The position numbers were made by a program, and so were the translations under genes. The notes beneath the pieces were generated by a model, which was not told the origin of the DNA, ran no database searches, and saw only the letters and a program-made list of their open reading frames with translations. A stretch of DNA of 64,000 nt from Planctomycetaceae bacterium (GTDB taxonomy: Bacteria > Planctomycetota > Planctomycetia > Planctomycetales > Planctomycetaceae). The stretch lies in contig JAKFUF010000010.1 in NCBI GenBank assembly GCA_021732845.1, forward strand, positions 1 to 64,000, in the 5' to 3' direction. Of the stretch, positions 20,218 through 32,823 are shown one piece after another (position 1 is the first letter of the stretch; each line of letters opens with the position of its first letter).

Positions 20218-20742
20218 TCATGATCCGGCCATCATCATGGCCAGCGTCTGCGAACTCAAAAAGAGGCGATAGGGATTGCCCGGCAACTCTGCGAAATCCC
20301 AGCGTTGGTAGAACGCCTTGGCTCGATCATCGATGCAGTCCAGAATGACCGCCACGAAAGCAAATGTCTGGCCTGCCTCGTGACAGTCACGCAATGCCTG
20401 TGCCAACAGCAGATTGCCGAGCTTCTGGCCTTGATCAGCCACGCTCACTCCCAGCCAGGCGAGGATCGCCACAGGCAGCGCACGTCGAGGCAGCTTTCGC
20501 GCGAGATCGGAGGGCAGGTCACCAAAATCGACCTGACCTGTCGCCAGCGTGTAGAACCCGGCAATCACGCCTTTCTGAACCTGCAGGACTTTCGTGGCGG
20601 AGAGGTGCTTGTCCTGATGCTGCAGCGCCTTGGTGTGCAGCCAATCATTGACCTCGCCCTGGCCACAATCAAACTGGCGGCGCGGGTGGCTACGCTGCAA
20701 TGGTTGGAGCGAGAACCCCTGGGGGAGGGCCACGCCGCTCAC
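20218..20742 (-). CDS. GNAT toxin of a type II TA pair (TacT/AtaT-like)
   Basis: A 174-residue GCN5-type acetyltransferase. Marks of the toxin family are the FDCGQGEVNDWLHTKALQHQ segment near the N terminus (family F.CG...N.WL), an acetyl-CoA loop QGQKLGNLLLAQAL, and AKAFYQRWDFAEL near the C terminus, whose tyrosine is the usual catalytic position. Such toxins acetylate aminoacyl-tRNA and stop translation. The ATG overlaps the antitoxin stop by 4 bases (ATGA), the standard arrangement. The family is about 160-175 residues long, so this one appears complete. Confidence 0.88.
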   Translation of the reverse strand: MSGVALPQGFSLQPLQRSHPRRQFDCGQGEVNDWLHTKALQHQDKHLSATKVLQVQKGVIAGFYTLATGQVDFGDLPSDLARKLPRRALPVAILAWLGVSVADQGQKLGNLLLAQALRDCHEAGQTFAFVAVILDCIDDRAKAFYQRWDFAELPGNPYRLFLSSQTLAMMMAGS

Positions 20743-21035
20743 CGTCGGCCTCGCATGATCGCCCCCAGCCGCTTCTGGGCTGGTGTGAGCTTTGGGGGAG
20801 CCTGCAACGCCTGCCAGAAGGCCAGTTGTTCCTCAGCGCTAAGCAGGATCGAATGGTCGCGGGCACTGGCCACCTCGCGCCGCGCCTGGGCGACAGTGAC
20901 CGTTCGCACGTAATCACTGACACTGATCCGCCGCAGTTCAGCCGCCTGGGTCAGTGCTTGTTTGCTCTCCGCATCCAGCCGAACCATCAGCGGGCTGACT
21001 TTGTCGGCGGTCGTCTCGGTGGTTTTTCTGGTCAT
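20739..21035 (-). CDS. DUF1778-type ribbon-helix-helix antitoxin
   Basis: A 98-residue antitoxin. Its N-terminal half (SPLMVRLDAESKQALTQAAE, then ISVSDYVRTV) fits a ribbon-helix-helix DNA-binding fold; the C-terminal part (LLSAEEQLAFWQALQAPPK) matches the toxin-blocking tail of DUF1778 proteins. The ATG at 21035 is preceded by AAGGGGA at good spacing; an upstream TTG extension is unlikely because it would run through the operator. It should neutralise the GNAT toxin and repress the operon by binding the palindrome 22 bp upstream. Confidence 0.88.
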   Translation of the reverse strand: MTRKTTETTADKVSPLMVRLDAESKQALTQAAELRRISVSDYVRTVTVAQARREVASARDHSILLSAEEQLAFWQALQAPPKLTPAQKRLGAIMRGRR

Positions 21036-21057
21036 GACCAATCCCCTTGGAAAACAG

Positions 21058-21078
21058 TGTATTGCAAATTGCAATACA
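21058..21078. promoter_or_regulatory. Palindromic operator of the GNAT/DUF1778 pair
   Basis: TGTATTGCAA at 21058-21067 and TTGCAATACA at 21069-21078 form a perfect 10-bp inverted repeat around one central base, 22 bases upstream of the antitoxin ATG on the minus strand. Antitoxins with a ribbon-helix-helix fold bind such sites to repress their own operon; binding here is inferred. Confidence 0.7.
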
Positions 21079-21196
21079 GTCAACGCCGGGAATTGCGACA
21101 TCACGCTGGCGGCTGGTGGGATCTTCCGAGGTGTGGGAAGATGAGATCGATCGGATCGAACTCAGATTTCATGCTTCAAGACCGGGGCGGACATCA

Positions 21197-22795
21197 ATGA
21201 ACCTGATGCGGCAATTCTTCTTCGCGGAGGAATCGCCCCGGCGGCTGGCCCTGGTGCGGATCTGCCTGGGCATCGTGCTGTTTTATGACGCGGCAGCTCA
21301 TTGGCCCTACGCGGTCGAACTGTATTCGACCTACGGTCCCCCCCTGCCGGTCTTCATTCGCCACGAGCCACTGCCCGCCGGCAACGGCTCGCCCATGACC
21401 ACCATCCCGAAGTTCTCCGGCCCGGACTCGTCGGCGATGGTGACGCTGGGGCAGGCGGTTGAGCCACGACAGGAAGCGAAACCGCCGGCCCGGCAGACTG
21501 TGACCACCTTTCATCCGCCAATTCCCGGCCCAACGCTGGCCGTGCTATTGGCCACCCTGCAACTGTTCGTCCTGGCCGCGGTGACCGTCGGCTGGCACAC
21601 GCGCACCAGCCTGTGGCTCACCTTCACCCTGACCCTGTACCTCGGCCTGCTTGATGGTTCGACGACGTTTGCCAAGTATTCGGTGCTGGCCCTGCATTTC
21701 CTGCTGCTTCTGACTCTGTCGCCGTGCCACCGTATCTGGTCCCTGGACAGCCTGCGATTCCCATCGACCGCGGAGGGCATGGCAGGAGCGGCCTGGACGC
21801 GGCGGCTGATGCAGTTGCAGGTGTGCCACATCTATCTGGGTTCGGCCCTGACCAAGCTGCAAAACCCCACCTTCGTCAGTGGCGACCTGCTGCAGTTCTC
21901 ACTCCTGGACCACGACTGGGGCGGGCGCTGGCTCGGAATGTGGCTGGCCACGCAGCCACACGTGGTTGTTCTTGCCAGCCTGTTGGTACTCCTGATCGAA
22001 CTCCTGTTTCCGTTCTTGGTCTGGGTGCCGGCCCTGCGGATCCCCATGCTGTTCGCCGCGGCGATGCTCCACCTGGGCGTGTGGCTCACCCTCAACGTCG
22101 GCATCTTCTCGCCCCTGATGTATTCGTGCCTGATCGTCTTTCTCACCGACAAGGATTTGGATTGGCTGGCTCCGTTTGCCAGACGAATGACACGAGGGCT
22201 GGCCAGTGATTTGCGGCTCGTATTCCGTCCGCGAACGACGAGCTTGTCAGACATCACCGCAGCCGGTCCTGGCGGCGCACTGACACGAAGCCACTCGTCG
22301 TGGAAGCGAATCATTTCGTATGTCCTGACCGCTGCCGCCGTCATCGGCTTGGGAATGGCGTGGCAGGTGCTGGAAGATCCCTACGGGGCCTTTGGCCGCC
22401 GCGAGATGCCAGGGTTGAAGCTTCTGTCCCGCGCGGACGTCGACCAGATGCTCACCCAACGGCTGCCGCCCTATGGCCACTACCTGCACCATGTCCGGCT
22501 TGGCAGCCGCGTCAGCGGACATCAGGCGTTTGGCAACACCTACCAGTTCCGGCACGGCCAGCGCGTGTATGTCGTCGTGCAATTCAATCAGCACCCCAAG
22601 CTGAAACTGGAGGGGCTGCTGATTGACCCCAACGGCAACGAAGTCGCCCGTTACACGCACACCGTCGAGCCGAATTTCGGTTATGCCATTGACGGCTTCG
22701 AGCTGACAACGCCGCTCACGCCCGGTTCCTACACCATCATCCTGCAGGCCGATGGGTTCCAAGTGGGGCTGCGGAATTTTGAATTGCTGCCGTGA
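21197..22795 (+). CDS. HTTM-domain multi-pass membrane protein
   Basis: A 532-residue membrane protein. It starts with an ESPRRLALVRICLGIVLFYD segment typical of HTTM domains (the membrane part shared with vitamin-K-dependent carboxylase) and has about eight or nine hydrophobic segments through residue ~385. A soluble C-terminal domain of about 130 residues follows (YGHYLHHVRLGSRVSG...), probably beta-rich. The ATG at 21197 with GGGGCGG upstream is chosen; a longer frame would overlap the antitoxin operator. Carboxylase activity should not be assumed. It converges with the Toprim gene. Confidence 0.8.
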   Translation: MNLMRQFFFAEESPRRLALVRICLGIVLFYDAAAHWPYAVELYSTYGPPLPVFIRHEPLPAGNGSPMTTIPKFSGPDSSAMVTLGQAVEPRQEAKPPARQTVTTFHPPIPGPTLAVLLATLQLFVLAAVTVGWHTRTSLWLTFTLTLYLGLLDGSTTFAKYSVLALHFLLLLTLSPCHRIWSLDSLRFPSTAEGMAGAAWTRRLMQLQVCHIYLGSALTKLQNPTFVSGDLLQFSLLDHDWGGRWLGMWLATQPHVVVLASLLVLLIELLFPFLVWVPALRIPMLFAAAMLHLGVWLTLNVGIFSPLMYSCLIVFLTDKDLDWLAPFARRMTRGLASDLRLVFRPRTTSLSDITAAGPGGALTRSHSSWKRIISYVLTAAAVIGLGMAWQVLEDPYGAFGRREMPGLKLLSRADVDQMLTQRLPPYGHYLHHVRLGSRVSGHQAFGNTYQFRHGQRVYVVVQFNQHPKLKLEGLLIDPNGNEVARYTHTVEPNFGYAIDGFELTTPLTPGSYTIILQADGFQVGLRNFELLP

Positions 22796-22841: not shown

Positions 22842-23486
22842 TCAAATTCCAAAGAGCTGGCGGAACCATGCGACAAAGGGCTGAGAATACGGACAGGTCG
22901 GATCGAGAATTGTATGATCGACCGCTTCGTGCAGTTGCGGGCCGGGTTCGTCCTGCCAGGCGAGGAAGGTGTGCATCCAGGCCTTGTCGAGATGCACACT
23001 TTTGAATGGAGCGCCATGCTTGCTCTTCGCCTCGTCGCGAGCAACCTTGGCATAATCCCAAAGTGGCTGATGTTCGGACCGCACCAGGTACTTCAAAAAA
23101 GTTTCCAGCATACCGGACGACAGATTGTCCGGCATGATCCAAGCGCCCAGCCGAATTCCGTAGGGGTTGACCGCGGAGATGAAGCCCGTGGAAGGGATCG
23201 TTGCAGGCATGTCGCTGAATTCCTGGGAGAACCAGCTCCTCATTCGCTGCCAAACGGTGTCGACAGATTGGTCCGCATCGAGAATGATCCCCAAAGCGTG
23301 CAGCCCCGGCTCTTTCAGAAAAGCCGAGGCGTCGACCTTCGTCAATGCGTTTTGGCCCAAGTCCTGAATACTGACGGGCTCATCGCCCTTCTGCCATGAG
23401 ACACCGTTTTTCTCCATGAGATACGGGATGAGCCGCCGGTCTTTGGCACCTTCCACGAGCAGCCGATTTGAATGCGAACGCCCCAT
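22842..23486 (-). CDS. Toprim-like protein (DUF3226-type), partner of the AAA ATPase
   Basis: A 214-residue protein. LLVEGAKD (VEG at 11-13) and ILDADQS (DAD at 70-72) are the glutamate and DxD acidic motifs of a Toprim nuclease/primase fold, and the overall layout matches DUF3226. Its ATG starts one base after the ATPase stop codon, so the two are translationally coupled. Toprim domains coupled to ABC-like ATPases are the business end of OLD nucleases and of split versions such as PARIS. Nuclease activity is inferred, not shown. It ends 46 bp from the converging HTTM gene. Confidence 0.75.
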   Translation of the reverse strand: MGRSHSNRLLVEGAKDRRLIPYLMEKNGVSWQKGDEPVSIQDLGQNALTKVDASAFLKEPGLHALGIILDADQSVDTVWQRMRSWFSQEFSDMPATIPSTGFISAVNPYGIRLGAWIMPDNLSSGMLETFLKYLVRSEHQPLWDYAKVARDEAKSKHGAPFKSVHLDKAWMHTFLAWQDEPGPQLHEAVDHTILDPTCPYSQPFVAWFRQLFGI

Positions 23487-23487
23487 C

Positions 23488-24597
23488 TCAGCGCACCTCC
23501 AATCCGCGGCGGGCGACAGCGAGGATCTCTGCTTCGGTGTAGCTCACCGCAGACTGACGGTCCTGCTCGATTCGTTGGATCGACACGTTGGAAAGCGCTT
23601 CAGGAGATTCGTGACAGATCGTGGCCAGCGACTCATAACAATCCCGACTGTGAGTCGTGGCGAACACCTGCACATTGAGTTCTTCGGCAGCGTTCCCGAT
23701 GAACGACCACATTCTGTCCATGGTGGTGTAGTGCAAGCCGGTGTCGATTTCGTCAATCAACAAGACTCCATTGGCGGATTTGGCGAGTGCCAAGGCAATT
23801 GTCAGCAGTCGATTGACTCCGTCTCCTAACACCCCAATGGGAAGCGGCTTGGCGACCCCCTTTAGCCGAACGACGATTTGAGGCATGCGGTTCCGATCCT
23901 TGGGGGCAAAGCGCTCGATTCTTTCGTCGAGCGATTGCAATGCCCGAAGAACCAGGCCTTCCTCGTCGGTCAGCGTAATGTCATCAATCAACGAGACGAG
24001 GTCTCGAGTAGAAAGTCCGCTTGTGGGCACGTAAGTCGTGCGAAATTCCTGGTCCGCGGCGTCGCGCCAGGCACTCCCCGCCTGAACTCCACCACGAGGT
24101 GAAAGCGGCGATGTCCAGATTTGTTTGGATTGCAGATCAGTGGCTGAAACGGAAAGCGTAAACCCCGATGGCACGAACGGTTCGTCGATATTTTCCGTCA
24201 ATGCGGGGGCGAGGGTGGTCGTGGTTCCGGTCACATGACCGTTGACCGGAGATGCTTTTACAACTTCAAGATGACAACTTTGAAGATGCGTATCGAGTGT
24301 CGCTGACAATGACATGGTGCTTCCATGCCGCAGTTCGAATCCGTGAAACCAGCAGTTCAGGTCGATTTCATCGAACAGGTTGCGCGCATCGCTGCCATTA
24401 TGCGATGACTCTCCCCGACGCACACCGATTGACCAAAGGATCTTGGAATCAGCCTTCGACATCACGACTTGGATCGCTTCGAGCAAAGAGGTTTTGCCCG
24501 AATTATTCATTCCAACAAGCAGGTTTACCCTGCCCAGCGCTGCGATCTCGAAGCGGCGGAATGAACGATAATTTTCAACGAGAAGGTTCGCGATCAT
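23488..24597 (-). CDS. AAA (ABC-like, OLD-family) ATPase
   Basis: A 369-residue ATPase. It begins LLVENYRSFRRFEI, typical of SMC/RecF/OLD-like ATPases, with Walker A GMNNSGKT at 29-36. An ABC signature-like LGDGVNRLL lies near 256, Walker B LLIDEIDTGLH with catalytic Glu near 283, and an ATTHSRD H-loop His near 316. There is no Toprim in this chain; that part is encoded by the next gene. The ATG at 24597 is preceded by GGAAG; the 35-codon extension upstream has a TTG start and no similarity. Together with the Toprim gene it looks like a split OLD/PARIS-type defence module; this role is inference. Confidence 0.82.
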   Translation of the reverse strand: MIANLLVENYRSFRRFEIAALGRVNLLVGMNNSGKTSLLEAIQVVMSKADSKILWSIGVRRGESSHNGSDARNLFDEIDLNCWFHGFELRHGSTMSLSATLDTHLQSCHLEVVKASPVNGHVTGTTTTLAPALTENIDEPFVPSGFTLSVSATDLQSKQIWTSPLSPRGGVQAGSAWRDAADQEFRTTYVPTSGLSTRDLVSLIDDITLTDEEGLVLRALQSLDERIERFAPKDRNRMPQIVVRLKGVAKPLPIGVLGDGVNRLLTIALALAKSANGVLLIDEIDTGLHYTTMDRMWSFIGNAAEELNVQVFATTHSRDCYESLATICHESPEALSNVSIQRIEQDRQSAVSYTEAEILAVARRGLEVR

Positions 24598-24671
24598 GTT
24601 CTGCTTCCACGTTGGGAGCCACTCTGAATCAGAGCAGTGTATAGCCGCGAAACCGTTCTTCTCAATCCGTT

Positions 24672-24710
24672 CCAAAAATGAAAAGACCCGCACGTTTTTC
24701 AACGCGCGGG
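24672..24710 (-). terminator. Intrinsic terminator of the DUF1501 gene
   Basis: Read on the minus strand, CCCGCGCGT (24710-24702) and ACGTGCGGG (24695-24687) form a 9-bp stem with one G-U pair, followed by TCTTTTCATTTTT. It begins about 30 bases after the DUF1501 stop codon and lies upstream of the ATPase start. Confidence 0.75.
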
Positions 24711-31098: not shown

Positions 31099-32823
31099 AT
31101 GGGCGACCAAGACGAGACCATTCACTATCCGCAATCCATCGGTGATGAGTCGCGAGCCCCTCCGTCGGCATCCGACACCAATTTGCGCTTGCGTGGCTTC
31201 GGCGATTACGAGTTGCTCAGTGAGATCGCCCGCGGCGGGATGGGAGTGGTTTATAAGGCCCGGCAAGTCAGCCTTAACCGGCTCGTTGCTCTCAAGATGA
31301 TCCTGGCTGGAGAATTGGCCTCACTTGATGAAGTTCGGCGATTTCACACGGAGGCTGAAGCTGCAGCCCTGCTTGATCATCCGGGAATAGTCCCAATTTT
31401 TGAGATCGGTCAATACGAAGACCAACACTTCTTCTCAATGGCCTTTGTTGAAGGTGAAAGTCTGGCGAAGCGGGTGATGAAGGGTCCCCTGCCATCACGA
31501 GAAGCGGCCGAAATCATGATCGAGGTGTCGCAGGCCGTGAATTACGCCCATGTCAAAGGTGTCATTCACCGCGACTTGAAACCGGGCAACATCCTGTTGG
31601 ATAGAAATGGGAGACCCCGTGTGACGGACTTCGGAGTCGCGAAGCTCACGCGGTGCGGCTCAGATGTGACTGGGACCGGGCAGATTCTGGGGACCCCGAG
31701 TTACATGCCGCCCGAACAGGCTGCCGGTAAAACCGACCAGATCGGTCCGCTCGCGGATGTTTATTCATTGGGTGCGCTCCTGTACTGCCTGCTTATAGGA
31801 AGGCCACCCTTTCAGGCGTCCAACGCTCTGGACACGTTGCTGCAAGTTATTGAACAGGAGCCGGTGGCGTTGCGCAAGTTGAATCGAGACGTGCCTCTCG
31901 ATTTGGAGATTATAACCCTTAAATGCCTTGAGAAAAATCCCGCCAGTCGCTATCGATCGGCAGGCGACGTGGCCGCCGATTTACAGCGGTTTCTCGACGA
32001 TGAGCCGATCCTTGCCCGTCACCTCGGGGTCGTAGGGCGTCTCCGACGTTGGAGCAGGCAGAAACCCCTCGCGAGTGGTTGCCTGATCAGTGCGGGTGGG
32101 CTGATTGGATTTTCTGCGGGGATCGCTTGCTTCGTCGGCGCTGTCATCTCCCTCGGTTTTTTCTCCATCGACACTGTCGGCTGGGCAATGAAGCCGCCCA
32201 ATTTGGCATTCTCCCTGCCACCAAGTGGGGGACAGACGCCGTTGATTCGACTGGAACCCGGAACGCTTAACCGAGTGGTATTGCACATGCAAATTCGATC
32301 GACATCCTTTGAGATGGACGGTTCCGACCCCTTCACACCTGATGAGGGCCTGAATGGTGCAAGCGACGACGCGGGCGAGAACTCCGGCAAACAAGCAAAT
32401 CCAACTCAAGGACAATCACGGGGACAATTCAATTTCCCGGTCAAATACTCGATTTTCGACGCGGCGGGGGAGACACTCGATCAGGCGTCCACTGTTGCCG
32501 ACTGGAGCGGCCTTCAGTTGTCCCAGATTTTGTCAGTCGACAAGGATTTCACAACGGTCATTACCCACATGGAACTCTGCAAACTGCGCTCTCCAACCTC
32601 GGGACAGGTGCAGGTGCGGGTCGCAGTCGCCCCTGACGAGATCTTCTACGCACAGGCTCAAAGGCTGGAATTGCGGATCTATGAAAGAATTCCCGACGGT
32701 GCAAGGTTCGGACTGCTGGGGGGGGCATTGTTTTTGGTCAGTCCGTTTGTTCTCCTGGCCGGACTCGTGTTGCTCCTTTACGGGCCATTTCTGATCATTA
32801 TGCGGACGATCAAGCGGAAGTAA
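31099..32823 (+). CDS. Membrane Ser/Thr protein kinase
   Basis: A 574-residue Hanks-type kinase. The kinase domain spans about residues 37-300: ARGGMGVVYKA, VALK, HRDLKPGN, DFG (VTDFGVAKL) and MPPEQ in place of SPEQ. A hydrophobic segment near 330-360 leads to an outer domain of about 170 residues, and a second hydrophobic segment lies at the very C terminus (about 540-568). So a loop between two membrane segments is exposed outside the cytoplasm. The ATG at 31099 is chosen; nothing upstream resembles the family. No dedicated partner gene is adjacent. Confidence 0.9.
   Translation: MGDQDETIHYPQSIGDESRAPPSASDTNLRLRGFGDYELLSEIARGGMGVVYKARQVSLNRLVALKMILAGELASLDEVRRFHTEAEAAALLDHPGIVPIFEIGQYEDQHFFSMAFVEGESLAKRVMKGPLPSREAAEIMIEVSQAVNYAHVKGVIHRDLKPGNILLDRNGRPRVTDFGVAKLTRCGSDVTGTGQILGTPSYMPPEQAAGKTDQIGPLADVYSLGALLYCLLIGRPPFQASNALDTLLQVIEQEPVALRKLNRDVPLDLEIITLKCLEKNPASRYRSAGDVAADLQRFLDDEPILARHLGVVGRLRRWSRQKPLASGCLISAGGLIGFSAGIACFVGAVISLGFFSIDTVGWAMKPPNLAFSLPPSGGQTPLIRLEPGTLNRVVLHMQIRSTSFEMDGSDPFTPDEGLNGASDDAGENSGKQANPTQGQSRGQFNFPVKYSIFDAAGETLDQASTVADWSGLQLSQILSVDKDFTTVITHMELCKLRSPTSGQVQVRVAVAPDEIFYAQAQRLELRIYERIPDGARFGLLGGALFLVSPFVLLAGLVLLLYGPFLIIMRTIKRK

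Follow-up and report, generated by a model that had tools for sequence, protein, structure and literature searches.

A coupled ABC ATPase and DUF3226 Toprim gene pair of the PDC-M38 kind in a planctomycete genome

Gene content and surroundings of the cassette

The sequence analyzed here, hereafter the window, is a stretch of 64,000 nucleotides from the 9.25 Mb genome of a Planctomycetaceae bacterium (assembly GCA_021732845.1, contig JAKFUF010000010.1). Its reverse strand carries a two-gene cassette, and both open reading frames are intact in the window. The first gene begins with ATG at 24597, ends at 23488, and encodes an OLD/Rad50-type ABC ATPase of 369 amino acids. The second begins with ATG at 23486, ends at 22842, and encodes a Toprim protein of 214 amino acids, a putative metal-dependent nuclease effector of the DUF3226 family. 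As the original prediction held, the Toprim gene starts one base after the ATPase stop codon, the junction reading CGC TGA G ATG. The codon immediately preceding the stop (23491..23493, reverse strand) encodes the C-terminal R369 of the ATPase, and the codons for E367 and V368 provide a Shine-Dalgarno-like GAGGTG (23494..23499, reverse strand) upstream of the Toprim start.

Upstream of the cassette and on the same strand lies a DUF1501 gene, separated from the ATPase gene by a terminator-like hairpin with a 10-bp stem followed by TCTTTTC (24687..24710, reverse strand). A sigma-70-like promoter match, TTGAGA-18-TACACT (24636..24665, reverse strand), then precedes the ATPase start. Both signals are consensus matches only; their order suggests that the two genes are transcribed as a separate unit. 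Downstream, a convergent HTTM gene of 1.6 kb extends to position 22795; an HTTM neighbor was also sought in relatives, none of which came from the genus of the host. At 55.2%, the GC content of the cassette falls below the 61.0% of the window, and just 1.1% of stretches of the same length have so low a value. Similarly, third-position GC is 0.61–0.68 in the cassette versus 0.76–0.83 in most of the genes compared. This low GC content suggests acquisition, without proving it. Elsewhere in the window, a 574-aa open frame (31099-32823, forward strand) has a third-position GC of 0.63, which is low for the window.

The cassette had been placed beside a toxin-antitoxin pair in what was thought to be a small defense island. 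The toxin-antitoxin pair is real, and consists of two overlapping genes of the TacAT kind (20218-21104, reverse strand): a TacA1/DUF1778-like antitoxin (20739-21104; TacA-like match, 1.4e-10) and a toxin partner (20218-20742) with weak matches to GNAT acetyltransferases. However, the HTTM gene lies between this pair and the cassette, and the two are thus not adjacent. The island itself also failed to appear. When 50 window genes were examined with PADLOC, 41 families were matched; the 25 of these 41 that were listed are all of kinase type, each matched by three genes, and none of these 25 represents a known defense system beside the cassette. Ten neighbor genes scanned at sister copies of the cassette in the same genome revealed no known defense system, and transporter and sugar-metabolism genes surround these copies, which are on contigs C43 and C40. 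In a sample of neighbors around related loci, the most common PADLOC families are PDC-S03 (7 of 148 neighbors) and mad3 (5 of 148), both somewhat more common than any family at a distance of at least 6 kb. A true enrichment of defense neighbors was considered and set aside, given that the near and far sets differ only slightly and that many matches are to generic models (kinases, TnpB-like Cas12f models). Overall, enrichment for defense genes around related loci is at most weak.

An OLD-type ATPase with a separate Toprim protein

The ATPase carries the motifs attributed to it in the original prediction, namely a Walker A motif (GMNNSGKT), a Walker B motif (LLIDEID, with D282/E283), and an H-loop histidine (H316). 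Searches with profile models, which had been proposed as a check, identified both proteins. The ATPase matches Pfam AAA_15 (E=1.5e-23) and the PADLOC model PDC-M38A (E=2.1e-72), with residues 1-369 aligned to model positions 1-383. Additional matches were obtained to AbiLi over the full length (3.5e-51) and to AriA in part (4.8e-25), and the N-terminal part shows RecF-like similarity. By structural comparison, the AlphaFold model (pLDDT 89.3) is about equally close to Rad50, SMC, PtuA, GajA, and AriA, with Z scores of 17-19 (AriA structure 8v46, Z 17.4).

The window copy is unusual at one position of the ABC signature. The signature serine is present in 71 of 72 aligned ATPases, the sole exception being the window copy, which has valine (V256; 23830-23832, reverse strand). 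Turning the GTG codon into one for serine would require changes at two or more bases, and a single sequencing error is therefore no explanation for this difference. The substitution may alter ATP hydrolysis. Overall, the window copy deviates at only 2 of 50 conserved ATPase columns and 2 of 34 conserved Toprim columns, and therefore does not look decayed.

The Toprim protein contains the expected VEG (E12) and DAD (D70/D72) motifs and matches Pfam DUF3226 (E=1.2e-57) and PDC-M38B (E=4.8e-60). NCBIfam yielded no match to this protein, and the Pfam and PADLOC models for DUF4435, AriB, and AbiLii/RloB gave none at E<=1, which agrees with the earlier description of the partner as DUF3226-like rather than DUF4435. 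A non-Toprim fold, which had been named as evidence that would count against the prediction, was not encountered: the fold is that of a Toprim domain. The top four Foldseek matches to the AlphaFold model (pLDDT 95.3) are C-terminal regions of Class 2 OLD proteins (6njx, 6njw, 6njv, and 6nk8), with E values of 1e-3 to 1e-2 and TM scores of 0.44–0.50. With VIA-align, the model was matched to Pyrococcus PH0156 (2p62; Z 12.8), OLD 6nk8 (Z 10.7 over 164 residues, rmsd 4.2), GajA (Z 8.0), and AriB (8ux9; Z 6.7), where values of Z below 8 possibly reflect no more than a common arrangement. A sequence search of solved structures returned AriB and one small Toprim protein, at non-significant E values only.

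The active site of the Burkholderia pseudomallei OLD nuclease is formed by E400, E404, D455, D457, T506, E508, and K562 (PMC6755086). Based on motifs and spacing, E12, D16, D70, D72, E128, and K168 of the Toprim protein would correspond to E400, E404, D455, D457, E508, and K562, respectively, with no counterpart assigned to T506. Among 73 aligned Toprim proteins, E12 is found in 72, D16 is D or E in 72, and D70, E128, and K168 are each found in all 73, whereas D72 is present in 60 and is N in the other 13. E12, D70, E128, and K168 thus show little or no variation.

Weak matches to the DUF3226 profile, below the cut-off, also occur in long open frames of other genomes. Each of three such frames that were examined has an N-terminal ATPase match, and the C-terminal part of one (660 aa) also matches the Toprim profile built here (5.9e-6). 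This is the pattern that would be expected of single-chain OLD-type proteins.

The likeness to Class 2 OLD proteins and GajA extends to both halves of the cassette, with an OLD-type ABC ATPase and a Toprim-plus-helical nuclease region whose candidate catalytic residues would correspond by motif and spacing. The difference is that one chain in those proteins is two chains in the cassette. Gabija differs further, in that no gene for a UvrD-like GajB helicase lies beside the cassette, where HTTM and DUF1501 genes are found. For AbiL/RloAB (AbiLi-AbiLii), the ATPase matches AbiLi over its full length, but the Toprim partner lacks a match to AbiLii/RloB. The closest correspondence is with PDC-M38, a candidate anti-phage system in PADLOC. 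Both proteins match its models over essentially their full length, the genes are adjacent in the same manner, and the cassette shows no difference in kind. All 61 homologs in each of the two alignments match PDC-M38 models as well. Since the PDC-M38A and PDC-M38B models are present in PADLOC-DB 2.0.0 of 2023, the cassette is not undescribed; that part of the original prediction of an undescribed split OLD must be given up, while the split-OLD description is well supported by the Foldseek matches and the conserved residues. The portion of the literature covered by our search contained no mention of DUF3226 or PDC-M38 and no experiment on the family.

Coupling of the two genes and their distribution

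The two genes are consistently found together. In genome and viral collections, the ATPase gene lies directly upstream of the DUF3226 gene at 83 of 84 loci, and the exception is at a contig edge. The same arrangement was seen at nine of nine loci among sister copies and relatives, a tenth locus being only a C-terminal fragment. The genes are mostly separated by 2–3 bases, and overlap at some loci. Pairwise identities of the ATPases and Toprim proteins are correlated in a mirror-tree comparison (r=0.91; permutation maximum, 0.22), to which the shared ancestry of the loci contributes; the two genes coevolve. Some loci have neighbors on the same strand, but none of these belongs to a family that keeps a constant position, as a third conserved gene would. 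A natural fusion of the two proteins was also sought, and the only candidate (L103) lacks the Walker B region of the ATPase and is therefore a broken pair rather than a genuine fusion.

The 3′ end of the ATPase gene offers a possible explanation for how expression of the two genes is linked. Across the family, the ATPase ends in a Glu-(Val/Ile)-Arg tail. The final arginine is present in 72 of 72 ATPases and is encoded by all six arginine codons across the loci, and its conservation is thus at the protein level. The invariant glutamate might be viewed in the same way, but its codon usage suggests a ribosome-binding site, either in place of or in addition to conservation of the residue. The codon corresponding to E367 is GAG at 62 of 67 loci, compared to 23 expected from each gene's own glutamate codon use, and none of 100,000 simulations gave a count as high. 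This bias fits a Shine-Dalgarno GAGGT serving the Toprim gene, and hence translational coupling.

The host genome contains additional copies. A second intact pair is located on contig C43 (L014:8950-10712), a third on contig C40 (L015:5620-7344) has a Toprim gene that runs to the contig end, and a C-terminal fragment is present at C190:128-292. The C43 and C40 pairs are only about 26-35% identical to the window copy. More broadly, 21 of 294 Planctomycetota genomes (7%), spread over 21 genera, contain DUF3226, as do 8 of the 59 genomes of a search of relatives and 51 of 244 genomes (about 20%) of a sample of the cyanobacterial phylum. Even within one cyanobacterial genus it is present in 5 of 11 genomes, one of which has fragments only. 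At six loci (L045, L074, L083, L087, L096, and L103), the reading frame of the ATPase or of the Toprim protein is disrupted, which suggests that the pair is dispensable, or else that there are assembly errors. The pair thus has the patchy distribution of an accessory element.

Possible functions of the pair

We consider it probable, but by a distance short of certain, that the cassette is a two-gene, toxin-antitoxin-like anti-phage system (PDC-M38) with the architecture of an OLD nuclease divided between two chains, in which an ATPase restrains a nuclease that is triggered by infection. This reading draws support from the full-length PADLOC matches of both genes, their consistent adjacency and correlated identities, the Shine-Dalgarno-like site at the end of the ATPase gene, the OLD-like fold with its candidate catalytic residues, the patchy distribution, the related pairs on plasmids and next to phage tail genes, and the low GC content of the cassette. 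The closest experimental parallels are AAA ATPases of other pairs that neutralize TOPRIM_OLD toxins in E. coli (PMC10440598), AriA–AriB (PMC12409363), and GajA (discussed in PMC12796447); Krishnan et al. 2020 is cited elsewhere (PMC12839542) for Toprim-linked OLD ABC ATPases. The two proteins would be made together by coupled translation. By analogy to relatives among OLD, Gabija, PARIS, and AAA-Toprim toxin-antitoxin systems, they would then assemble, with the ATPase, dimerized around ATP, restraining the nuclease. During infection, a signal such as a phage protein, DNA ends, or falling ATP levels would alter the nucleotide state and free the Toprim subunit, which would then cut nucleic acid by using a two-metal active site of the OLD type. 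This cleavage would halt phage growth, probably via cell death or arrest. DNA and tRNA are both candidate substrates, and the OLD-like active site leans toward DNA. Several observations speak against an anti-phage function, including the lack of known defense systems among the neighbors scanned and PADLOC families listed, the weak enrichment of defense genes around related loci, the stable loci beside core genes and near-single group of cyanobacterial copies described below, and V256 in the window copy.

A more specific proposal is offered tentatively, and we would not yet bet on it. The DUF3226 pairs might constitute a separate OLD class, in which a nuclease region of the Class 2 type exists as its own chain and is held by a compact ATPase. 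The invariant C-terminal Glu-(Val/Ile)-Arg tail of the ATPase might contribute to the switch that restrains or activates the nuclease, and the trigger and substrate might be distinct from those of PARIS.

Three other explanations are each unlikely to be correct, but warrant attention. One is that the cassette is a variant of PARIS (AriA-AriB; proposed Class 4 OLD), where the ATPase would sense a phage anti-restriction protein and release the Toprim subunit, whose target would be host tRNA, as for AriA/AriB. The split ATPase and Toprim genes, their order, and their architecture are alike. Furthermore, the rule used to define PARIS (Rousset et al., PMC9122126) includes an AAA_15/AAA_21 ATPase with a threshold of 32 bits, and the cassette ATPase scores 84.5 bits against AAA_15. 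It also resembles AriA by its partial model match and its fold, and structural comparison of the Toprim model returned AriB among other proteins. However, the DUF4435/AriB partner of PARIS is lacking from the cassette, whose Toprim protein is a DUF3226 protein of 214 aa, compared to AriB chains of 308-316 aa, and is structurally nearer to the C-terminal regions of Class 2 OLD proteins than to AriB.

It is similarly improbable that the pair is a host-integrated nuclease with a cellular role in repair, replication, or the cell cycle, rather than a defense system. Such a role has been shown for Cran1, an OLD-family protein of Saccharolobus (PMC12796447). This explanation gains from the absence of defense systems among the neighbors scanned at the sister copies and the PADLOC families listed for the window, and also from the situation in Cyanobacteria. 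There, the pair keeps constant positions next to core genes at a small number of loci, both in Nostocales (aldo/keto reductase, bifunctional nuclease, and riboflavin synthase; alaS) and in Pseudanabaena (metH); the gene names are our reading of the sequences. The cyanobacterial rows of the tree form nearly one group, and the tree within the phylum is largely vertical, unlike that of fast-moving defense genes. Conserved occurrence in core contexts with a known housekeeping role had been named as evidence against the original prediction; these stable loci exist, but no housekeeping role is known. Against a cellular function, most genomes lack the pair, even inside one genus, broken copies exist at several loci, and some related pairs are carried by small plasmids or adjoin phage genes. 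The pair thus shows both long residence and patchy loss. As a separate observation, seven Nostocales loci (L024, L030, L044, L047, L058, L075, and L079) have aldo/keto reductase-like and bifunctional-nuclease-like genes in common upstream, most also have a riboflavin-synthase-like gene upstream, and Uma2/DUF820-like frames are nearby in some.

The pair might instead be a plain toxin-antitoxin or addiction module, in which the ATPase neutralizes a Toprim toxin and maintenance relies on post-segregational killing with no sensing of viruses, although we doubt this to about the same degree. The genes are tightly coupled, the first is antitoxin-like, and related pairs reside on two small Acinetobacter plasmids of 9.7 and 13 kb. 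Also, analogous AAA ATPases have been validated in E. coli, for other pairs, as neutralizing TOPRIM_OLD toxins in toxicity assays (PMC10440598). However, most copies were found on chromosome-like contigs, and only five of 72,556 plasmid records matched the pair. The ATPase family also keeps a complete set of ABC motifs, which would seem to exceed the need of a simple neutralizer. With regard to mobile elements more generally, a related pair adjoins phage tail genes on a Plesiomonas megaplasmid, four matches were found among viral contigs and none among the phage records searched, and the window DNA itself had no match among plasmids. Finally, it seems very improbable that the pair mediates recombination without nuclease activity, in the manner of RecF (ABC ATPase) and RecR (Toprim), despite the RecF-like N-terminal part of the ATPase and the common Toprim fold. 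The candidate residues for two-metal catalysis, E128 and K168 among them, do not vary, and the best fold matches are OLD nucleases.

Pairs of an ATPase and a Toprim protein are a repeated theme in bacterial immunity, and only a few of them are understood (PARIS, Gabija, and some retrons). The cassette belongs to a kind that is already catalogued as the candidate system PDC-M38 and is still uncharacterized. This DUF3226 pair, carried by approximately one-fifth of sampled Cyanobacteria and 7% of Planctomycetota, looks nearest to the single-chain OLD nucleases. The characterization of even one such pair would tell whether a split OLD acts like PARIS, on tRNA, or like OLD and Gabija, on DNA.
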